A DNA stretch of 64,000 nucleotides from Rhizobium binae. GTDB taxonomy: Bacteria > Pseudomonadota > Alphaproteobacteria > Rhizobiales > Rhizobiaceae. The DNA is taken from contig NZ_CP071604.1 of NCBI RefSeq assembly GCF_017357225.1, positions 3,475,001 through 3,539,000 of the forward strand. The letters are read 5' to 3'. The notes below the pieces were generated by a model, which was not told the DNA's origin, made no database searches, and saw only the letters and a list, made by a program, of their open reading frames with translations. Below are positions 6,952 through 48,978 of this stretch, piece after piece (within the stretch, counting starts at the first letter, position 1; each line of letters opens with the position of its first letter). Position numbers and translations under genes: made by a program.

Positions 6952-6976
6952 GGAACTTTTCACCGCCCGGCACGTT
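6952..6976 (+). promoter_or_regulatory. EcfG-type promoter for the DUF883/holin-like pair
   Basis: GGAAC at 6952-6956, 16 bases, then CGTT at 6973-6976: an exact match to the alphaproteobacterial EcfG consensus GGAAC-N16/17-CGTT. Transcription would begin near 6983, about 104 bases before the ATG at 7087. Confidence 0.75.
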
Positions 6977-7086
6977 TTCGGCAGTGATTTGAGTCAATGC
7001 CGGGCGGTCTCATCTATGCAACGAACGGTCATGACCCCCGTGCAAAACAGGCGGGCTTGCGCGCGCCCCAGCCAATGGAGATAACC

Positions 7087-7431
7087 ATGACCTATTCCAT
7101 TTTTCACTCCGGCCGCAGCCGCCGCAACGGCAGCTTCCATAATTTCGAATCCGGCATTGAGGAACAGATCGAGGCGCTGCGCGACGAGCTGGCGGAACTG
7201 ACGCGCCTCGTCGGCAAGAATTCCCGCAATCAGGGCGATAAGATCCGCGGCCAGGCCAGCGCCGGCTATGAGGAACTGCTCAGCCGCAGCGAGGATCTCT
7301 TGCGCGAATTGCAGCACGGCTACGAGCGCAGCGCGACCGAGATGCGCGAGACCGTGCGCAAACATCCGCTGGCAACGATCGGCGCCGCGGCCGCCTTCGG
7401 CCTGGCCATCGCCTTCCTCGCTCGGCGCTGA
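7087..7431 (+). CDS. DUF883/ElaB-YqjD-like membrane-anchored protein
   Basis: 114 residues: a charged, helical N-terminal part (EEQIEALRDELAELTRLVGKNSRNQGDKIRGQASAGYEELLSRSEDLLRELQHGYERSATEMRETVRKHP) followed by one C-terminal transmembrane helix, LATIGAAAAFGLAIAFLARR. This is the ElaB/YqjD (DUF883) plan. In E. coli those proteins are C-tail-anchored, bind ribosomes and are controlled by the stress factor RpoS. The start at 7087 follows GGAG with good spacing. An EcfG-type promoter upstream gives it the equivalent alphaproteobacterial stress control. The holin-like gene follows 8 bases downstream. Confidence 0.78.
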   Translation: MTYSIFHSGRSRRNGSFHNFESGIEEQIEALRDELAELTRLVGKNSRNQGDKIRGQASAGYEELLSRSEDLLRELQHGYERSATEMRETVRKHPLATIGAAAAFGLAIAFLARR

Positions 7432-8022: not shown

Positions 8023-8580
8023 TCAAAACGCAAACGCCTTCGACGTCAGCGGCGCCGAAGTTGCGTCCGGGCCGAAATCGGCTTCGCCCGAGATCTGCAG
8101 CAATTCCTGCAGCCGTTGGCGGGCGCGGTTGACGCGGCTCTTGATGGTGCCGACGGCACAGCCGCAGATTTCGGCGGCCTCCTCGTAAGAAAAGCCGGAG
8201 GCGCCGACGAGGATGATCGCTTCGCGCTGGTCCGGCGGCAACTGGTCGAGCGCTTTCTTGAAATCCTGCAGGTCGAGCGCGCCATATTGCGAGGGGTGCA
8301 TCGCCATCGATTCGGTAAACAGGCCGTCGCTGTCCTGCACCTCGCGGCCGCTTTTACGCATCTGGCTGTAGAGTTCGTTGCGCAGAATCGTGAAGAGCCA
8401 GGCCTTCATATTGGTGCCCATCTCGAAATGATCCTGCTTGGCCCAGGCCTTCATGATCGTATCCTGGACGAGATCGTCGGCACGGTCGTGGCGGCCGATG
8501 AGCGAGATCGCGAAGGCGCGAAGACTGGGCAGGGCCGCCAGCAATTCCCGCTTGAAGCTGGGTTGCACTTTATCTTCCAT
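8023..8580 (-). CDS. ecfG: General stress response sigma factor EcfG
   Basis: 185 residues, an ECF sigma factor with region 2 (LRAFAISLIGRHDRADDLVQDTIMKAWAKQDHFEMGTNMKAWLFTILRNELYSQMRK) and region 4 (LDQLPPDQREAIILVGASGFSYEEAAEICGCAVGTIKSRVNRARQRLQELL). The DLVQDTIMKAW and FEMGTNMKAWLFTILRN stretches are characteristic of the EcfG (ECF15) group. It directs RNA polymerase to GGAAC-N16/17-CGTT promoters, several of which occur in this window. The gene starts 10 bases after nepR on the same strand, and phyR is divergent: the conserved alphaproteobacterial general stress locus. NepR holds EcfG inactive until phosphorylated PhyR binds NepR. Confidence 0.95.
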   Translation of the reverse strand: MEDKVQPSFKRELLAALPSLRAFAISLIGRHDRADDLVQDTIMKAWAKQDHFEMGTNMKAWLFTILRNELYSQMRKSGREVQDSDGLFTESMAMHPSQYGALDLQDFKKALDQLPPDQREAIILVGASGFSYEEAAEICGCAVGTIKSRVNRARQRLQELLQISGEADFGPDATSAPLTSKAFAF

Positions 8581-8590
8581 GCGGGCGATC

Positions 8591-8797
8591 CTATTCGGCC
8601 ATCTTGGCGGAAGCCATCATCTCGGCATGGTCGAGCTTTTCGAGAAGATCGAGAAAACGATCGGGGATCGCTTCACCCTGCGCGGCCGCATAAAGCGACC
8701 GCAATTTGACGCCGATCTGATTGTTCGGGTCCAGGATATCGCTTGCCCGCAGCTCCAGCTTTCGCTGATCGGCTGCTTCTTTCTTGCGTGTGGTCAT
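8591..8797 (-). CDS. nepR: Anti-sigma factor NepR
   Basis: 68 residues from the ATG at 8797. The central motif NQIGVKLRSLYAAAQGEAIPDRFLDLLEKLDHAE is the NepR signature: two helices that wrap around EcfG, with the conserved LRxLY and IPDRFLDLLxxLD stretches. NepR sequesters EcfG and is released when phospho-PhyR takes it over. An in-frame upstream ATG (8839) would add 14 residues, but the NepR core fits the shorter reading. It lies 10 bases ahead of ecfG and divergent from phyR. Confidence 0.92.
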   Translation of the reverse strand: MTTRKKEAADQRKLELRASDILDPNNQIGVKLRSLYAAAQGEAIPDRFLDLLEKLDHAEMMASAKMAE

Positions 8798-8942
8798 CAA
8801 TTCGTCTTCTCGCCGGTTGTCTGTTCCAGAGGCGTGCACGGCATAATCACGACTTCAACCAGCGACACCGAGGTAATACGATGTTGCCGATGTTTGCCGC
8901 GGCGTGGGTCAAAATGCTACGCCCTTTCTTTGTCGGCTGGAA

Positions 8943-8968: not shown

Positions 8969-8988
8969 TGCCGTTCCGGAACTTTTTT
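8958..8988. repeat. Perfect inverted repeat carrying two divergent EcfG -35 elements
   Basis: Arms of 11 bp (8958-8968 and 8978-8988, AAAAAAGTTCC and its complement) flank a 9-base centre. Each arm contains GGAAC pointing outward, so one palindrome supplies the -35 element for phyR on the right and for nepR-ecfG on the left. Confidence 0.75.
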
Positions 8989-9002
8989 ATCAAGATGGCG
9001 TT
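8978..9002 (+). promoter_or_regulatory. EcfG-type promoter of phyR
   Basis: GGAAC at 8978-8982, a 16-base spacer and CGTT at 8999-9002 match the EcfG consensus exactly. The predicted transcript starts near 9009, 39 bases before the phyR ATG, giving the positive feedback known for this system. Confidence 0.85.
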
Positions 9003-9047
9003 AATCGCTCATTGAAGCCAATGCCGGCCTGTATACAGGAGCCATAT

Positions 9048-9842
9048 ATGACACTTTCTACTCGAATTGCGCCGCACCTTCCTTATCTGCGTCGCTATTC
9101 CCGCGCGCTGACCGGTACCCAGACTTCAGGTGACGCCTATGTCGCCGCCGTTCTTGAAGCCATCATCGCCGATCTATCGATTTTCCCGGATACGGCGAAT
9201 GACCGGGTCGCCCTCTACAAACTGTTTACGCAATTATTTGGTTCCACTGCAGTCCAGATTCCCGAGCCGACCTCGCCATATGCGTGGGAACAGCGCGCCA
9301 CCCTCAACCTGTCCAAAGTCTCGCCCGGCGCCCGCCAGGCTTTTCTGCTCGCTTCCGTGGAGAATTTCCGCGTCGCCGAAATCGCCGAAATTCTCGAGCT
9401 CGATGAACAGGATGTCATGCAACTGCTCGACAAGGCTTCTCAGGAGATTTCCCGTCAGGTTGCAACCGATATCATGATCATCGAGGACGAGCCTTTGATC
9501 GCCATGGATATCGAGCAGATGGTCGAAAGCCTCGGCCACCGCGTCACCGGAATCGCCCGCACCCATGCCGAAGCCGTCGCGCTCTACAATAAGACGAAAC
9601 CAAGCATGGTGCTCGCCGACATCCAGCTTGCCGACGGCAGTTCCGGCATCGACGCGGTCAACGACATTCTCAAGACGTCGAGCGTGCCAGTGATCTTCAT
9701 CACCGCTTTCCCGGAACGGCTTCTGACGGGCGAGCGCCCCGAACCCACTTTCCTCGTCACCAAACCTTTCAACCCCGACATGGTCAAGGCACTGATCAGC
9801 CAAGCGCTTTTCTTCAATGAATCGACCAAAGTAGCCGCCTGA
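9048..9842 (+). CDS. phyR: Stress response regulator PhyR (sigma-like domain plus receiver)
   Basis: 264 residues from the ATG at 9048 with CAGGAG upstream. Residues about 1-135 imitate an ECF sigma factor (SRALTGTQTSGDAYVAAVLEAI, and KVSPGARQAFLLASVENFRVAEIAEILELDEQDVMQLLDKA in place of region 4). Residues about 140-258 form a receiver with the acidic pair in IIEDEPL, the phosphoacceptor D191 in LADIQLADG, the switch T in IFITAFPE, and the K in VTKPFNP. When phosphorylated, the sigma-like domain binds NepR and frees EcfG. The gene is divergent from nepR-ecfG and has its own EcfG-type promoter. A histidine kinase gene follows on the same strand. Confidence 0.95.
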   Translation: MTLSTRIAPHLPYLRRYSRALTGTQTSGDAYVAAVLEAIIADLSIFPDTANDRVALYKLFTQLFGSTAVQIPEPTSPYAWEQRATLNLSKVSPGARQAFLLASVENFRVAEIAEILELDEQDVMQLLDKASQEISRQVATDIMIIEDEPLIAMDIEQMVESLGHRVTGIARTHAEAVALYNKTKPSMVLADIQLADGSSGIDAVNDILKTSSVPVIFITAFPERLLTGERPEPTFLVTKPFNPDMVKALISQALFFNESTKVAA

Positions 9843-9862: not shown

Positions 9863-9888
9863 GGAACCAAACCGTCGAAACAGGCGTT
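9863..9888 (+). promoter_or_regulatory. EcfG-type promoter of the HWE kinase gene
   Basis: GGAAC at 9863-9867, 17 bases, CGTT at 9885-9888. The start site would be near 9895, which rules out translation from the in-frame ATG at 9892 and supports the GTG at 10015. Confidence 0.8.
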
Positions 9889-10014
9889 CCGGTGCTGCCG
9901 GGACGCGCGATGGCCTTAATGGTTTTTGCAGCGCTTTGTTCTAGAGTTGGCAGGCAGTTTCTGGAGGTCGTTCCCTTCGGCGACGTTCAAGATGTCACAA
10001 GGAAAGGCGGCCGA

Positions 10015-11028
10015 GTGAATACGACTGAACCATTGTCGGGCACGCCTTTCACCTTCGAGGGTAAAGCCGCAATGATGGAACGGGCGCTCGGCAGCGCCGG
10101 TATTTCAATTCTCTGCCAGGACGCCCGGCTTTCGATTTTCTACGCCGAAAATCTGCCGCCGTATTTCGCGGCGCTCTTCATGCCCGGCGGCACTGATGCC
10201 GGCCTTTTCGGTGACATCCATGGGCAGTATCTGACAGTGCTCAAACAGAAGGTGCTGGAGACCGGCATCCCCAACAATGCCGAGGTCGAAATCGACGTCG
10301 ACGGCGAAATGCGCACCTATGAACTAAAAATCCAGCGCACCGGAGAACGTGGCACGCACGGGCTTTTGTCGGTCATGACGGAGGTCACCGAAAGCCGGCA
10401 TCGCGAAAAAGTACTCAAATCGCTGCTGCGCGAACTCTCGCACCGCTCGAAGAACCTTCTCGCCATCATCCAAGGCATTGCCACGCAGACGGCGCGCAAC
10501 ACGCTCTCGCTTGACAGCTTCCTCCTGAAATTCCGCGGGCGGCTGCAATCGCTTTCCAATTCCCAGGACCTGATCACGGATTCAAGCTGGCGCGGCGCCT
10601 ATCTCTTCGAACTCGCCGAAAAACAGTTCGCCCCCTACTGGCCGGAAACATCAGGCTCTATGCCGATCTACGGCATAAACGCGCATCTGACGCCGAATGC
10701 CGCCGTGCATCTCGGGCTCGCCCTCCACGAACTCATCGTCAACTCCGCCTCCTTTGGCGCAATTGCCGGCGGCGCTGCCTCGATCACGCTCAACTGCCGG
10801 GAAGCTGCGATCGGCGACAGACGGGCGATCGAGATCGCCTGGGCGGAAGTGCTGCAGGATCAGTCGGAGGTCCACGAATTCAGCGACAACAGCTTCGGCC
10901 GCACCGTGCTGGAGCGTGTCGTGCCCTCGTCGGTCAACGGCAAAGCGGAACTGAAACTCGTACCCGGCCGCATCGAATATCGGCTGAGCATTCCGGAAAC
11001 TGAATTCGAAATCTTCAAGCGTGTGTGA
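10015..11028 (+). CDS. HWE/HisKA_2-family histidine kinase of the stress locus
   Basis: 337 residues from a GTG at 10015, preceded by AAGGAAAGG. The N-terminal 120 residues look like a PAS-type sensor (FYAENLPPYFAALF, GEMRTYELKIQRTGERGTHGLLSVMTEVTE). The dimerisation box RELSHRSKNLLAIIQGIATQTAR places the phospho-histidine at H143. The ATPase part shows HLGLALHELIVNSASFGA, the N-box of HWE/HisKA_2 kinases, and a W-E pair in EIAWAE. No membrane segment is visible, so it is cytoplasmic. Lying next to phyR under an EcfG-type promoter, it is a good candidate for the PhyR kinase (PhyK/PakF role), though this is inferred. An open frame extends back to 9892, but that start overlaps the predicted transcription start. 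Confidence 0.85.
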   Translation: MNTTEPLSGTPFTFEGKAAMMERALGSAGISILCQDARLSIFYAENLPPYFAALFMPGGTDAGLFGDIHGQYLTVLKQKVLETGIPNNAEVEIDVDGEMRTYELKIQRTGERGTHGLLSVMTEVTESRHREKVLKSLLRELSHRSKNLLAIIQGIATQTARNTLSLDSFLLKFRGRLQSLSNSQDLITDSSWRGAYLFELAEKQFAPYWPETSGSMPIYGINAHLTPNAAVHLGLALHELIVNSASFGAIAGGAASITLNCREAAIGDRRAIEIAWAEVLQDQSEVHEFSDNSFGRTVLERVVPSSVNGKAELKLVPGRIEYRLSIPETEFEIFKRV

Positions 11029-11053
11029 GAAGCCCTGACGATAAACCCAAACT

Positions 11054-11177
11054 GAAAAACAGCCGGTGCGAGGGCGGCGCACCGGCTGTCTTCACTCACC
11101 GGGAGGGGACCGTGAGTACGTCCGGATAGTGGGTTGGGGGCGCGCATGTTGGGTCGATGCGATCACCATCCGGATAT
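11054..11177 (-). ncRNA. Candidate EcfG-controlled small RNA (GsrN-like architecture)
   Basis: An exact EcfG-type promoter points left at 11208-11184 and an intrinsic terminator ends at about 11054, giving a transcript of roughly 124 nt from 11177. Three hairpins can be drawn. Stem 1 pairs 11164-11174 with 11121-11131 (11 bp, one G-U) around a 32-nt loop rich in C (GCGCCCCCAACC). Stem 2 pairs 11112-11117 with 11094-11099 and exposes GGUCCCCUCCCG, which can pair with Shine-Dalgarno sequences. Stem 3 is the terminator, 12 bp (11078-11089 / 11059-11070), then UUUU. This resembles GsrN of Caulobacter, a sigma-T-dependent sRNA near the same regulators with a C-rich 5' loop. A 25-codon frame (11171-11094) exists but has no ribosome site. 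Confidence 0.7.
11059..11089 (-). terminator. Intrinsic terminator of the small RNA
   Basis: A perfect 12-bp stem (ACAGCCGGTGCG and its complement) with a 7-base loop, followed on the minus strand by a run of T. On the plus strand the stem is followed by CTTCAC, so it is a true intrinsic terminator mainly for leftward transcripts, though it may also help end the kinase mRNA. Confidence 0.8.
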
Positions 11178-11183
11178 CGCAAT

Positions 11184-11208
11184 AACGACGACGTCCGAGT
11201 TTGGTTCC
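11184..11208 (-). promoter_or_regulatory. EcfG-type promoter of the small RNA
   Basis: On the minus strand, GGAAC (11208-11204), a 16-base spacer, and CGTT (11187-11184): an exact consensus. No protein gene lies downstream in this direction before the terminator at 11059-11089. Confidence 0.78.
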
Positions 11209-11411
11209 CTGCGATCGTAAAAAATTCCACTTTTTTGAATCTTTTTTTTGCGCTCCCCTTCTGCACCGAACGCGCAAGTAATTCTCAGGCCCGGGGCGGG
11301 AAAATTTCTTGTGCAAAAACAGCATCTTGCGTGGACACTCGAAAGAGCCGATCCCAAAATTTTACCGTTTGATAAATTTTTAAACCTGAGTTACGCTTTC
11401 CCTCACAGGCC

Positions 11412-11436: not shown

Positions 11437-12798
11437 ATGGAACGACTGGAAACTGGGATTCATGCCGGCCGGCTTTCGCCCGCCGAGTATGAGGCTAACT
11501 TTTCCGATCTTCATCCGCGCCTCGACAATCACGAGGCGCTGGTCGCCGCCGACCGCTGTTATTTCTGTTACGACGCGCCGTGCATGACGGCCTGTCCGAC
11601 CTCGATAGATATTCCGCTGTTCATCCGCCAGATTTCGACCGGCAACCCGATCGGCTCGGCGAAGACAATTTTCGATCAGAACATCCTTGGCGGCATGTGC
11701 GCCCGCGTCTGTCCCACCGAAGAGCTCTGCGAACAGGCCTGTGTGCGCAACACGGCCGAGGAGCGGCCTGTCGAGATCGGCCGCCTGCAGCGTTACGCCA
11801 CCGATGCGGCCATGCAGGCCGGCAAGCAGTTCTATGTCAGAGCCGAAGCGACAGGAAAGAGGATCGCCGTCGTCGGCGCCGGCCCTGCAGGCCTTGCCGC
11901 CGCTCATCGTCTGGCTGTGAAAGGTCATTCCGTGACCATCTACGATGCCAGGGAAAAATCCGGCGGCCTCAACGAATATGGCATCGCTACCTACAAGACG
12001 GTCGACGATTTCGCGCAGAAGGAAGTCGATTACATAATGTCGATCGGCGGCATCGATGTCCGCCACGGCACCCTTCTCGGCCGCGATTTTTCGCTTGCCG
12101 ATCTGCAGGCCCAACATGATGCCGTCTTCCTCGGTATCGGCCTTGCCGGCGTCAACGCGCTGCGCATTGAGGGCGAGAACTTGGCAGGCGTCGACGACGC
12201 CGTCGATTTCATTGCGGCGCTCCGCCAGGCCAAGGACAAGAGCGAGATCGCCGTCGGCCGCCGCGTCGTCGTCCTTGGCGGCGGCATGACGGCGATCGAC
12301 GCCGCCGTGCAGGCAAAGCTGCTCGGCGCCGAGGAAGTGACGATCTGTTACCGCCGCGGCAAGGAGCACATGAACGCCTCGGAATACGAGCAGGATCTGG
12401 CCAGTTCCAAGGGCGTCATCATCCGCCACTGGCTGGCGCCGAAATCAATCCTGTCGCAGGATGGCAAGGTCGCCGCGATCGAGGTGGAATATACAAAGAT
12501 TGTCGAAGGTCGCCTCGTCGGCACCGGCGAGACCGGCGTGATCGCAGCAGACCAGATCTTCAAGGCAATCGGGCAGACCTTTGATGCCTCCGGCCTTGGT
12601 TCACTCCGCATGGAATCCGGCCGCATTGCGATCGACGTCGAAGGCCGCACCTCGCTCGACAAAGTCTGGGCCGGCGGCGACTGCGTGTTCGGCGGCGAGG
12701 ACCTTACGGTTTCCGCCGTCGCCCACGGCCGCGACGCGGCCGAATCCATCCATCGCGCCCTCACCGCCGCCGCTGCACCGGCTGTCGCGGTTGCCTGA
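11437..12798 (+). CDS. preT: NAD-dependent dihydropyrimidine dehydrogenase, subunit PreT
   Basis: 453 residues from the ATG at 11437 (SD GAGGGA). The N-terminal Fe-S domain has cysteines in RCYFCYDAPCMTACPTSIDIPLF and CARVCPTEELCEQACVR. Then come an FAD-binding motif (VVGAGPAGLAAAHRLA) and an NAD(P)H-binding motif (VVVLGGGMTAIDAA), ending in GGDCVFGGEDLTVSAVAHGRDAA, the GltD-like layout. PreT passes electrons between NADH and PreA, which reduces uracil and thymine to dihydropyrimidines in the cytoplasm. preA follows after 15 bases. The downstream pathway enzymes are at 30278 and 32342, about 15 kb away. Confidence 0.93.
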   Translation: MERLETGIHAGRLSPAEYEANFSDLHPRLDNHEALVAADRCYFCYDAPCMTACPTSIDIPLFIRQISTGNPIGSAKTIFDQNILGGMCARVCPTEELCEQACVRNTAEERPVEIGRLQRYATDAAMQAGKQFYVRAEATGKRIAVVGAGPAGLAAAHRLAVKGHSVTIYDAREKSGGLNEYGIATYKTVDDFAQKEVDYIMSIGGIDVRHGTLLGRDFSLADLQAQHDAVFLGIGLAGVNALRIEGENLAGVDDAVDFIAALRQAKDKSEIAVGRRVVVLGGGMTAIDAAVQAKLLGAEEVTICYRRGKEHMNASEYEQDLASSKGVIIRHWLAPKSILSQDGKVAAIEVEYTKIVEGRLVGTGETGVIAADQIFKAIGQTFDASGLGSLRMESGRIAIDVEGRTSLDKVWAGGDCVFGGEDLTVSAVAHGRDAAESIHRALTAAAAPAVAVA

Positions 12799-20607: not shown

Positions 20608-20632
20608 AACGGTTTCGGACGGAGGGGGTTCC
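20608..20632 (-). promoter_or_regulatory. EcfG-type promoter of the trehalose-synthase-like operon
   Basis: On the minus strand GGAAC (20632-20628), a 16-base spacer, CGTT (20611-20608): exact EcfG consensus. Predicted start near 20601, about 32 bases before the GTG at 20569. This puts the treS-like/LLM/DUF6766 operon in the general stress regulon. Confidence 0.78.
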
Positions 20633-39890: not shown

Positions 39891-42800
39891 ATGAATTTTT
39901 CAGCCTGGTCCATTCGAAACCCGATCGCGCCGCTGCTGGCCTTCTGCCTGCTGATATTCATCGGCATTCAGTCCTTCAACACGCTGCCGATCACCCGCTT
40001 CCCGAACATCGACGTGCCGCTGGTTTCGATCAGCGTGACGCAGAGCGGCGCTTCGCCGGCCGAACTGGAAATGCAGGTGACGAAGGAGATCGAAGACGCA
40101 ATCGCCTCGATCACCGGTATCGACGAAATCCAGTCGACGGTGACCGATGGCAGCTCGCAGACCAACGTCATGTTCCGCATGGAGGTTCCTACGGAACAGG
40201 CGGTGCAGGACGTAAAAGATGCCATCGATCGCATCCGCAGCGATCTGCCGGCGACAGCCGAAACGCCGATCGTCACCAAAGTCGATGTCGAGGGTCAGGC
40301 AATCCAGACCTTCGCGGTTTCCTCGCCTGATATGTCGCTGGAAGAACTCTCCTGGTTCGTCGACGACACGATCAAGCGCGCGCTGCAGGGCCAGGCCGGC
40401 ATCGGCCGCGTCGACCGTTACGGCGGCGCCGATCGAGAAGTGCGCATCGAGCTCACCCCCGGCAAGCTCGATGCCCATGGCATCACGGCCGCAAGCGTCA
40501 ACCAGCAGCTGCGCGGCACCAACGTCGACCTCGGCTCCGGCCGCGGACAGGTGGCGGGTAGCGAACAGGCGATCCGCGTTCTCGGCGACGCCCGTAATGT
40601 TGCCGAGCTTGCCGACACGACGATTGCGCTGCCGAACGGCCGCTTCGTCAAGCTTTCTGATCTCGGCGTCATCAAGGACACTTACGAGGAGCCGAAATCC
40701 TTCTCGCGCTTCAACGACACCCCAGTCGTCACCTTCGGCGTCTTCCGCTCGAAGGGTGCCAGTGAGGTCAGCGTCGCCGAAACTGTGGCGCAGAGCCTCG
40801 ACAAGGTCAGAGCCGACAACCCGAATGTGAAGATCGAGATGATCGACGATTCGGTTTATTTCACCTACGGCAATTACGAAGCCGCCATCCATACGCTGCT
40901 CGAAGGGGCGCTGCTCGCCGTCATCGTCGTCCTGCTCTTCCTCCGGAACTGGCGTGCGACGCTGATCTCGGCGATCGCCCTCCCCCTCTCGGCGATCCCG
41001 ACTTTCTGGGTCATGGATATGATGGGCTTCTCGCTGAACCTCGTCAGCTTCCTCGCCCTGACGCTTGCGACAGGCATCCTGGTCGACGACGCGATCGTGG
41101 AAATCGAAAACATCGCCCGCCACATCAAGATGGGCAAGACGCCCTATCGGGCGGCGATCGAGGCGGCTGACGAAATCGGCCTCGCCGTCATCGCCACCAC
41201 CTTCACCATCATTGCCGTCTTCGTGCCGGTTTCCTTCATGCCGGGCATTCCGGGCCAGTACTTCATCCAGTTCGGCCTGACCGTCGCTTTCTCCGTCTTC
41301 TTCTCGTTGCTGGTCGCGCGCCTCATCACTCCGATGATGGCCGCCTATCTGATGCGCGCTGAAGACGGGATGGAAGACCATCACGACAATGACAGCCTGC
41401 TGATGAAGGGTTATACGCGCCTGATCCGGGGGACGACCGGACATAAGTATTCGCGATATCTGACTTTGCTTGCGGCGATCGGCTTTCTCGTTGGCTCGGT
41501 TTTCCTGCTGATGAAGGTTCCCGGCAGCTTCCTGCCGCCGGAAGACGCCTCGCGTATCGTTCTTTCCGTCGAACTGCCGCCGAATGCGCGGCTCGACGAC
41601 ACCGAGAAGACGACCAATGCGATCTATGACAGGGTCAAGGACATCAATGGCGTCGACAGCGTCTTCGTCCTCGGTGGCGCATCGCCGAAGGGCGATCTCG
41701 AACTGCGCCGTGCGACCATCACGCTGGCGCTCCACAAGCTCGACCAGTCGCTGGTCAAGAAGGTGGTCAACGACGTGCTCGGCCATATCCCGGTCATTGG
41801 CCCGATGTTGCCGAAGGTGGAAGTCCACGGCCGCGAGCGCCCGCAATGGGATATTGAAAAGGAAGTCTTCGCCAAGCTGCGCGATATTCCCGATGTCCAT
41901 ATCCTGAAGCTCAACGACCGCGGCGAACGCGACCTCTCCTTCAACTTCCTCTCCAAGAATGAGAAGGACCTGAACGAGGCCGTCGGCATTCTGGAATCAA
42001 AGCTGCGCGCCGATCCGCTGCTAGCCAATGTCAGCGCCGACGGTGCCCTGCCCCGTCCGGAACTGCAGGTCTACCCGCGCAAGGATGAAGCTGCCCGCCT
42101 CGGCATCACGCCGCAACAGATCTCCGAGACGATCCGCGTCGCCACCATCGGCGACGTCGATGCGGCACTTGCCAAGATCTCGCTCGACGATCGCCAGATT
42201 CCGATCCGGGTGCAGGCAGCGCTCGACATGCGCCGCGACCTTGCCGCCATCCGGGCGCTGAAGATTCAGACCGCCAGCGGCGGCACCGTTCCGCTCGCAA
42301 GCGTCGCCAATATCGACTACTCGGAAGGCGTAAGCTCGATCAAGCGCAATAACCGCTACCGCGTCGTCTCGATCGGTTCCGACCTGCCGCAGGGCGTGGC
42401 GCTCGACACGGCCTCCGCCAGGTTCCGCGAGATCGTTCAGGCGGCCAACATCCCGGCGACTGTGCACCTTGCCGAAAGCGGCGATACCAAGGTGCAGACC
42501 GAGATGCAGCAGAGCTTCGTCAACGCCATGTTGATGGGCCTTCTGCTGGTGCTGACGGTGCTGATCCTGCTCTTCAAGGACGTGATCCAGCCCTTCACCA
42601 TCCTGTTCTCGCTGCCGCTCGCGATCGGCGGTGTCGCGGCGGGCCTGATCATCACCAGCAATCCGCTGTCCATGCCAGTGATGATCGGCATTCTGATGCT
42701 GATGGGTATCGTCACCAAGAACGCCATCCTGCTCGTCGATTTCGCGATCGAGATGCGCCATCAGGGCATGTCTCGCGTCGAGGCCATGGTCGAAGCCGGC

Positions 42801-47265: not shown

Positions 47266-48978
47266 CTAGAACAGAAAATAGCGCTGCGCCATCGGCAGCA
47301 CCGTCGCCGGCTCGCAGGTCAGCAGTTCGCCATTCGCCCTGACTTCATAGGTCTCCGGATCGACTTCGATCTCCGGCGTCAGGTCGTTATGGATCATCGA
47401 TGCCTTGGAGATGCCGCCGCGCGTGTTCTTCACCGCCATCAGTTCCTTCGCGACTCCGAGCCGGCCCTTCAGGCCGGCATCGAGCGAGGCCTGGCTGACG
47501 AAGGTGACGGAAGAATTGGTGAGGCTCTTGCCGTAGGAGGCAAACATCGGCCGGTAGTGCACCGGCTGCGGCGTCGGGATCGAGGCGTTCGGATCGCCCA
47601 TGGGGGCTGCCGCGATCGAGCCGCCGAGCAGCACCATGTCGGGCTTTACGCCGAAGAAGGCCGGATTCCACAGCACGAGGTCGGCGCGCTTGCCGATCTC
47701 GACCGAGCCGATCTCATGGCTGAGACCATGCGCGATCGCCGGATTGATCGTGTATTTGGCAATGTAGCGGCGAACGCGGAAATTGTCGTTGTCGCCCTTT
47801 TCCTCTTTCAGCCGGCCGCGCTGGCGCTTCATCTTGTCGGCCGTCTGCCAGGTACGGATCGCCACCTCGCCGACGCGCCCCATGGCCTGGCTGTCGGACG
47901 AGATGATGGAGAAGGCGCCGATATCGTGCAGGATATCTTCAGCGGCGATCGTCTCCTTGCGGATGCGGCTTTCGGCAAAGGCGATATCCTCGGGGATCGA
48001 CGGCGACAAATGATGGCAGACCATCAGCATGTCGAGATGCTCGGCAATCGTATTGACCGTATAGGGCCGCGTCGGATTGGTCGACGACGGGATGACGTTC
48101 GGCTGGCCGCAGATCTTGATGATGTCGGGGGCATGTCCGCCACCCGCCCCTTCGGTGTGGAAGGCATGGATGGTACGGCCCTTGATCGCGCCGATCGTAT
48201 CTTCGACGAAGCCGCTTTCGTTCAGCGTATCGGTGTGGATCATCACCTGCACGTCATATTCGTCGGCAACTGACAGGCAGCAGTCGATGGCGCCGGGCGT
48301 CGTGCCCCAATCTTCATGCAGCTTCAGCGAGGTGGCGCCGGCCAGCACCATCTCGGTCAAAGCCCCCGGCAGCGAGGCATTGCCCTTGCCGGCAAAGGCG
48401 AGGTTCATCGGAAAGGCGTCGGCCGCTTCGATCATGCGCGCAATGTGCCAGGGGCCAGGCGTGCAGGTCGTGGCAAGCGTGCCATGCGCCGGACCCGTGC
48501 CGCCGCCGAGCATGCAGGTCATGCCCGACATCAGCGCTTCTTCGATCTGCTGCGGCGCGATGAAGTGAATATGGCTGTCCATGCCGCCAGCAGTCACGAT
48601 CTTCCCTTCGCCGGCGATCGCCTCCGTGCCCGGGCCGACGATGATATTGACGCCGGGCTGCATATCGGGATTGCCCGCCTTGCCGATCGCAGCGATGCGC
48701 CCGTTCTTGAGGCCGATATCGGCCTTGTAGATGCCGGAATGATCGACGATCACCGCATTGGTGATAACGGTGTCGACCGCCCCATCCGCCCGCGTCACCT
48801 GGCTCTGGCCCATGCCGTCGCGGATCACCTTACCGCCGCCGAACTTCACCTCCTCGCCATAGGTGGTGAAATCCTTCTCGATCTCGATGAAGAGCTCCGT
48901 ATCGGCAAGGCGCACCTTGTCGCCGGTGGTCGGTCCGAACATGCCGGCATAGGCGGCGCGCGAGATCTTATAGGGCAT
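47266..48978 (-). CDS. ureC: Urease alpha subunit UreC
   Basis: 570 residues, standard length. Active-site residues can be read: the HxH pair in [12 protein letters not shown], the carbamylated lysine in [16 protein letters not shown], histidines in [13 protein letters not shown] and [14 protein letters not shown], the mobile flap histidine in [10 protein letters not shown], and the aspartate in SSDSQAMGR. It hydrolyses urea to ammonia and carbamate with two nickel ions. The ATG follows GGAGCC. Upstream on the same strand are the accessory-like gene (48982), the LprI-like gene and ureB. Confidence 0.97.

Follow-up and report, generated by a model that had tools for sequence, protein, structure and literature searches.

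Small RNAs (sRNAs) with C-rich loops are known from several alphaproteobacteria, and the one closest to the locus analysed here is that known in Rhizobium etli as ReC64. Vercruysse et al. (2010) found it with a tiling array and on a Northern blot, the latter showing a larger band of unclear origin besides the band of the expected size (PMC2881028). Jans et al. (2013) placed the RNA, at 88 nt, downstream of phyR-tcrY, and reported that its 5′ RACE start fits the prediction from an EcfG1 motif and that it is the sole down-regulated R. etli ncRNA with such a motif ahead of it; a ReC64 gusA fusion was abolished in ecfG1 mutants but retained 82% in an ecfG2 mutant, either sigma factor, EcfG1 or EcfG2, activated the fusion in E. 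coli, and the RNA was conserved in R. leguminosarum bv. viciae 3841 (PMC3892343). These authors left open any role of such ncRNAs in stress resistance (PMC3892343). In an RNA-seq study of 2014, ReC64 and one further ncRNA are listed as rising under salt shock; ReC64 was absent from the heat-raised ncRNAs listed in the part of the paper covered here, which gives predicted SigA and RpoH promoters before ReC64 and no EcfG one (PMC4167512); that prediction sits ill with the direct evidence for EcfG from 2013. The literature naming ReC64, in the portions covered, reports neither a function nor a phenotype.

For Tien et al. (2018), the RNA that Jans et al. had studied in R. etli is a putative homologue of GsrN, on the grounds of transcription, promoter, locus and an exposed C-rich 5′ loop (PMC5869019). 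According to the same paper, gsrN lies distal to the GSR locus in Caulobacter crescentus and usually near it in Caulobacteraceae, BLASTn matches to GsrN are limited to Caulobacteraceae, the 5′ loop is the best conserved part of the RNA in that family, and the 5′ part is enough for peroxide survival (PMC5869019). GsrN is also processed to a stable 5′ isoform, and two bands are on record for ReC64. An initial annotation of our locus, made from the DNA alone, had described Caulobacter GsrN as sitting at the general stress locus, which is incorrect for C. crescentus. PmaR of Agrobacterium tumefaciens, in which a loop mutant abolishes target regulation, differs from ReC64, by description, in consisting of a single long stem with an end loop, in lying between two hypothetical genes, and in being reported from Agrobacterium plus one related strain only (PMC6234868). 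For a multi-loop design the closest parallel, again judged by description, appears to be SmelA075/SmelA099, which like ReC64 are stress-linked and have several hairpins per RNA, each with an anti-Shine-Dalgarno (anti-SD) motif; they differ from ReC64 in that a genome carries several copies, which vary in the number of modules, and the covered part of that report does not mention an EcfG promoter at a phyR locus (PMC3927594). A Sinorhizobium meliloti homologue could not be assigned by name: the rpoE2-locus names were not found in the available text of Valverde 2008, and the S. meliloti start-site paper, as far as covered, names RpoE2-linked sRNAs, none of them tied to this locus.

We analysed a 64-kb window of Rhizobium binae DNA (the window being the whole stretch studied), the relevant features of which are collected in Table 1. 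The sRNA gene is intergenic, between the end of tcrY (11028) and the next gene (11437), and thus downstream of phyR-tcrY; it has an EcfG1 consensus promoter; and an exact 48-mer of it is present in R. johnstonii 3841 (NC_008380.1), flanked there by tcrY and by the same next gene. ReC64 of R. etli CFN42, matched by description, shares the place, the promoter motif and the conservation in 3841. We conclude from position, promoter and 48-mer that the element is ReC64. The initial annotation had proposed an EcfG-type stress sRNA at the phyR-kinase locus, and this observation was correct, the transcript, its ecfG1 dependence and its rise under salt shock having been published for R. etli. However, its suggestion that the RNA is possibly undescribed in the genus has to be withdrawn: the RNA was already known as ReC64, comparison with GsrN included, and we rejected the possibility that it is new. 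The flanking oxidoreductase gene is presumably PreT-like.

Table 1 Features of the sRNA locus and its surroundings (positions in the window)
Feature	Position	Strand	Evidence or detail
ecfG, ECF sigma factor	8023..8580	-	Pfam sigma-70 regions 2 and 4
nepR, anti-sigma factor	8591..8839	-	PF18557, 1.2e-13
phyR	9012..9842	+	PhyR sigma-like and receiver domains (Pfam)
tcrY, HWE histidine kinase, convergent with the sRNA	9994..11028	+	PF07536, 4.5e-22
ReC64 sRNA, predicted ~123 nt	11055..11178	-	Fold, covariation, promoter-inferred start ~11178/11177
Hairpin 3, intrinsic terminator	11055..11093	-	Loop CCGCCCU 11077-11071, T-run TTTTT 11059-11055
Hairpin 2	11094..11117	-	C-run CCCCUCCC at 11108-11101; loop UCCCCUC
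Hairpin 1	11121..11174	-	11-pair stem, 11174-11164 with 11131-11121
EcfG-type promoter GGAAC-N16-CGTT	11184..11208	-	Exact match
A/T-rich block upstream of the promoter	11209..11253	.	A+T content, T-runs in 70 loci
Pyridine-nucleotide oxidoreductase gene, other flank of the sRNA gene	11437..12798	+	PF14691, PF07992

The published size of 88 nt plus a larger band differs from the ~123 nt predicted in R. binae, a length that follows from the predicted start at 11178/11177 and the end at 11055. The 88-nt form may be a processed or shortened RNA, and the larger band perhaps the full-length one. No Rfam 15 family scored above its gathering cut-off on the sRNA, and we rejected membership of a listed family; the best score on the sRNA strand was that of ar35, at 15.7 bits against a cut-off of 45, and covered the terminator part only. 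Plasmid copies were not found in PLSDB (blastn, E 1e-5). Elsewhere in the window, Rfam RF02514 (5′ ureB sRNA) scored 120 bits at 48537-48825 on the plus strand, antisense to the minus-strand ORF 47266-48978. We take this ORF to encode the urease alpha subunit; the match is probably due to conservation of the urease coding region, not to an sRNA gene.

The promoter, as read in the sequence of the minus strand, consists of GGAAC (11208-11204), a 16-base spacer and CGTT (11187-11184), with the coordinates and spacing exactly as initially annotated. The accompanying claim that no gene follows it also held: no ORF of at least 80 aa lies wholly inside the sRNA interval, and the two minus-strand ORFs that overlap the interval continue antisense to the kinase gene. 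GGAAC-N16/17-CGTT occurs six times in the window, compared with 0.85 expected, and at least six times in one of 100 shuffles; four of the six motifs lie at 6.9-11.2 kb, around ecfG, nepR, phyR and tcrY. The other exact motifs are at 6952-6976, 8978-9002 and 9863-9888 on the plus strand, where they precede ORF 6997-7431, phyR and tcrY, in that order, and at 20608-20632 and 40164-40189 on the minus strand. By eye, a GGAAC-N16-CATT near-match on the minus strand faces nepR-ecfG. Judging from the sequence, the true start of phyR is probably the ATG at 9048. All 70 Rhizobium loci examined have GGAAC-N15..18-GTT upstream of the sRNA, with C or G preceding GTT in 64. The 45 nt upstream of GGAAC have a mean A+T content of 0.64 in these 70 loci (minimum 0.49; window mean 0.39), and 60 of the 70 blocks include a run of at least five T. 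It is possible that the A/T-rich block is an UP element, or that it marks the end of the tcrY transcript on the plus strand.

We folded positions 11050-11177. The predicted structure has a free energy of -55.3 kcal/mol and a z-score of -4.9, and none of 200 shuffles was equally stable, which bears out the structured RNA initially proposed. The first stem is indeed 11 bp long and begins three bases past the start at ~11177. Its interior contains an inner hairpin (11161-11143), a small GCAU/AUGC stem, and then a C-rich linker with CCCCC at 11140-11136; the exposed C-rich 5′ loop of hairpin 1, CGCCCCCAACC, is reduced to CGCCC in part of the genus. The C-rich loops that had been noted on the first and second stems are seen in the fold, and to these we add the terminator loop, which is likewise C-rich. 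An intrinsic terminator with a T-run is present as described, but not in addition to three hairpins: the third hairpin is itself the terminator, making three in total. A simple terminator scan did not list it, an omission probably due to the stem extending into the T-run.

A 171-base query gave one match in each of the 100 Rhizobium genomes searched. Seventy of these 100 loci were examined, yielding 49 distinct transcript strings (L039, the end of which was not found, was left out); alignment A1 has 40 rows, nine strings with over-extended 3′ ends having been excluded. Because a 64-nt piece, used as a DNA query against the family, matched only the genus (3 of 151 genomes), a covariance model was needed. 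Model R1, comprising 40 Rhizobium sequences, was run on 151 family genomes, three of them from the genus, and returned 15 non-genus matches in 12 genera with E < 1e-3. GGAAC lies upstream of all 15, with xGTT at positions -26 to -31 in 13 and ATT in two (by eye), and all 15 are convergent with, and just after, a match to phyR or tcrY; in eight, phyR is next and the stretch has no tcrY match. Promoter and neighbours are outside model R1 and hence independent of it. Among the weaker R1 matches (E > 0.001), none of the eight examined has such a promoter in the proper position, the promoter check leaving aside L095, L096, L099-L101 and L149. Alignment A3 holds 29 of 32 loci, since the E-value cut, set against antisense matches, also dropped L089-L091.

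At E 3.1e-9 or better, model R2 matched 39 of the 297 family genomes, of which five belong to the genus and 34 to 13 of the 108 other Rhizobiaceae genera sampled. Twelve of the 13 genera were already R1 finds, ten of which had been used to build R2, so that one genus is new. Most sampled Rhizobiaceae genera have no strong R2 match, and detection beyond the genus is patchy. Class-wide samples of 289 (R1) and 337 (R2) genomes, which overlap and include the window's own genome, gave no convincing relative under the stricter Infernal filters used, with which distant relatives may be missed. Each sample produced one marginal foreign match, with E 0.0016 for R1 and 0.002 for R2; the former has neither the promoter nor an adjacent phyR or tcrY.

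Within the genus (unfitted MAFFT alignment), both sides have changed, with pairing kept, in 12 of 35 pairs, and covariation was 0.187, compared with 0.125 in shuffles, although related sequences can exceed shuffles without structure. Of the nine pairs modelled for the outer stem of hairpin 1, seven changed on both sides within Rhizobium. The family alignment gave higher values (26 of 35 pairs changed on both sides; covariation 0.390, against 0.147 in shuffles and at most 0.079 in slid controls), but was fitted to the model and so is biased towards it. Stems and loops are conserved in related genomes.

The 15 other-genus RNAs average 2.8 CCC-bearing hairpin loops each (0.72 in refolded shuffles), with three such loops in 12 RNAs and two in three, and 46 Rhizobium sequences average 2.78 (0.65 in refolded shuffles), with three in 36 and two in ten. 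The terminator loop includes CCC in 12 of the 15 other-genus RNAs and lacks it in three. C-rich runs are found in hairpins inside and outside the genus, as judged from single folds. The unpaired fraction of C is only slightly higher than in refolded shuffles (0.48 vs 0.43); it is therefore the placing of the C-runs in loops that stands out. Across 40 Rhizobium sequences, mean identity is 0.965 for hairpin 2 and 0.972 for the terminator, and 0.862 for the inner hairpin and linker; loop 2 is invariant in all seven modelled columns and the terminator loop in six of seven. Hairpins 2 and 3 are therefore better conserved in Rhizobium than the 5′ region stressed by earlier work. We conclude that genus-wide conservation, relatives in part of the family with promoter and synteny support, covariation, and C-rich loops that usually occur on all three hairpins can be added to what is known of ReC64.

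No target of ReC64 was found among the katG leaders and exact loop complements tested. None of the exact 10-base complements in the 7.06-Mb genome lies just upstream of an ORF start, as defined by crude ORF calls; loop 2 has three other sites (13 for a backwards control) and loop 1 has 14 (5 for the control). With none at a start codon among these 3 + 14 sites, we rejected an exact long complement there as the basis of targeting. A 25-codon open frame, MVIASTQHARPQPTIRTYSRSPPGE (11092-11169, minus strand), passes through the sRNA and is kept in close relatives. The spacing ranges from 57 to 66, and an in-frame start is missing in 15 of 49 distinct Rhizobium strings. The landmark CTCAC is present in 58 of 64 distinct strings, and 23 of the 58 that could be judged on this basis lack an in-frame start within the first 40 nt (a tally of 27 of 64 includes six unjudgeable strings); we therefore rejected a hidden peptide.

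With a probability that we put at roughly two in three, ReC64 is an sRNA that is induced by stress and acts in trans, its several C-rich loops pairing with G-rich or Shine-Dalgarno sequences. Action in trans by pairing is suggested by the C-rich loops, by the analogies with GsrN and PmaR, and by the lack of a conserved reading frame. Under stress, PhyR would free EcfG1, which would start ReC64 at the promoter at 11208-11184, and transcription would stop at the hairpin 3 terminator; the transcript, its start site and its EcfG1 dependence are in print for R. etli ReC64 (PMC2881028, PMC3892343). The RNA is predicted to fold into three hairpins, usually with one C-rich loop each. These loops may pair with G-rich stretches of mRNAs, whether Shine-Dalgarno regions or G-rich leaders, and we infer that pairing would alter the translation or stability of the mRNA, any direction of the effect being likewise presumptive. 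Loops 2 and 3 may matter at least as much as the 5′ loop.

If ReC64 were a true GsrN orthologue, its 5′ C-rich loop would pair with the katG leader and raise KatG, with the other loops serving as scaffold. We consider this unlikely, although it is the proposal of Tien et al., who base it on locus, promoter and exposed 5′ C-rich loop (PMC5869019), and although ReC64 shares with GsrN that loop and the dependence on EcfG/SigT, which is indicated here by the promoter and published for R. etli (PMC3892343). By eye, a G-rich stretch lies about 60-90 nt before the start in many of the 30 katG leaders retrieved from Rhizobium (L150-L179), for example AGGGAGAGAGTGGGG or GGGAGGATGCG, depending on the group. 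We compared nine of these 30 leaders with 20 shuffles each, always using the window's own sRNA. The leader of the window's own genome paired no better than chance, 17 of 20 shuffles pairing as well or better, and seven of the nine paired worse than their shuffle mean; L170 alone clearly beat its shuffles (19 of 20), through loop 2. The computational test is a weak one, and we conclude that a katG target transferred from Caulobacter is not supported in the R. binae genome, a point on which ReC64 appears to differ from GsrN. It also differs in usually having three C-rich loops, and in that conservation in Rhizobium is highest in hairpins 2 and 3, not in the 5′ loop, the reverse of the description for Caulobacteraceae. 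Moreover, homology to GsrN was sought with the ReC64 models only, and neither R1 nor R2 gave a convincing match in the overlapping class samples under strict filters.

Action in cis appears less probable still. The RNA, or its transcription, might oppose the convergent phyR-tcrY transcript as a 3′-end antisense and so tune the stress switch. Such a role is conceivable because the convergent position is kept even where phyR is the neighbour, as in the eight of 15 other-genus loci that have no tcrY match, and the plus strand has no T-run terminator for tcrY within the sRNA gene, the next T-runs being at ~11231-11251. However, an antisense needs no conserved structure, yet the stems covary and the loops are near-invariant, and the portions of the literature covered document no read-through from tcrY. 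A sponge, whose C-rich loops would capture a protein or a G-rich sRNA in place of mRNAs, is very unlikely in our estimation: several similar C-rich loops per RNA would suit the titration of a single partner, but no partner is known, and two alphaproteobacterial sRNAs with C-rich loops, GsrN and PmaR, act on mRNAs (PMC5869019, PMC6234868, as far as covered). It is most improbable that ReC64 is a functionless by-product of a promoter followed by a terminator. That the covered ReC64 literature reports no phenotype would fit such a by-product, whereas its presence in 100 of 100 genomes of the genus, the covariation, the near-invariant loops, and the promoter and place kept in other genera argue against it.

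A more far-reaching form of the trans-acting reading, which we offer tentatively, is that ReC64 founds a Rhizobiaceae RNA family that is multivalent, with three separate C-rich anti-SD loops, that of the terminator hairpin included, which would repress or remodel several mRNAs at once, or one G-rich mRNA at several points. If this is true, targeting would involve the terminator loop as a conserved element, an unusual arrangement. Loops 2 and 3, being near-invariant across the genus, are the first parts to mutate, rather than the 5′ loop alone. A family entry, of which Rfam 15 has none, could be based on the covariance model. If the loops do act as anti-SD elements, the rhizobial stress response would gain a post-transcriptional arm, as in Caulobacter.
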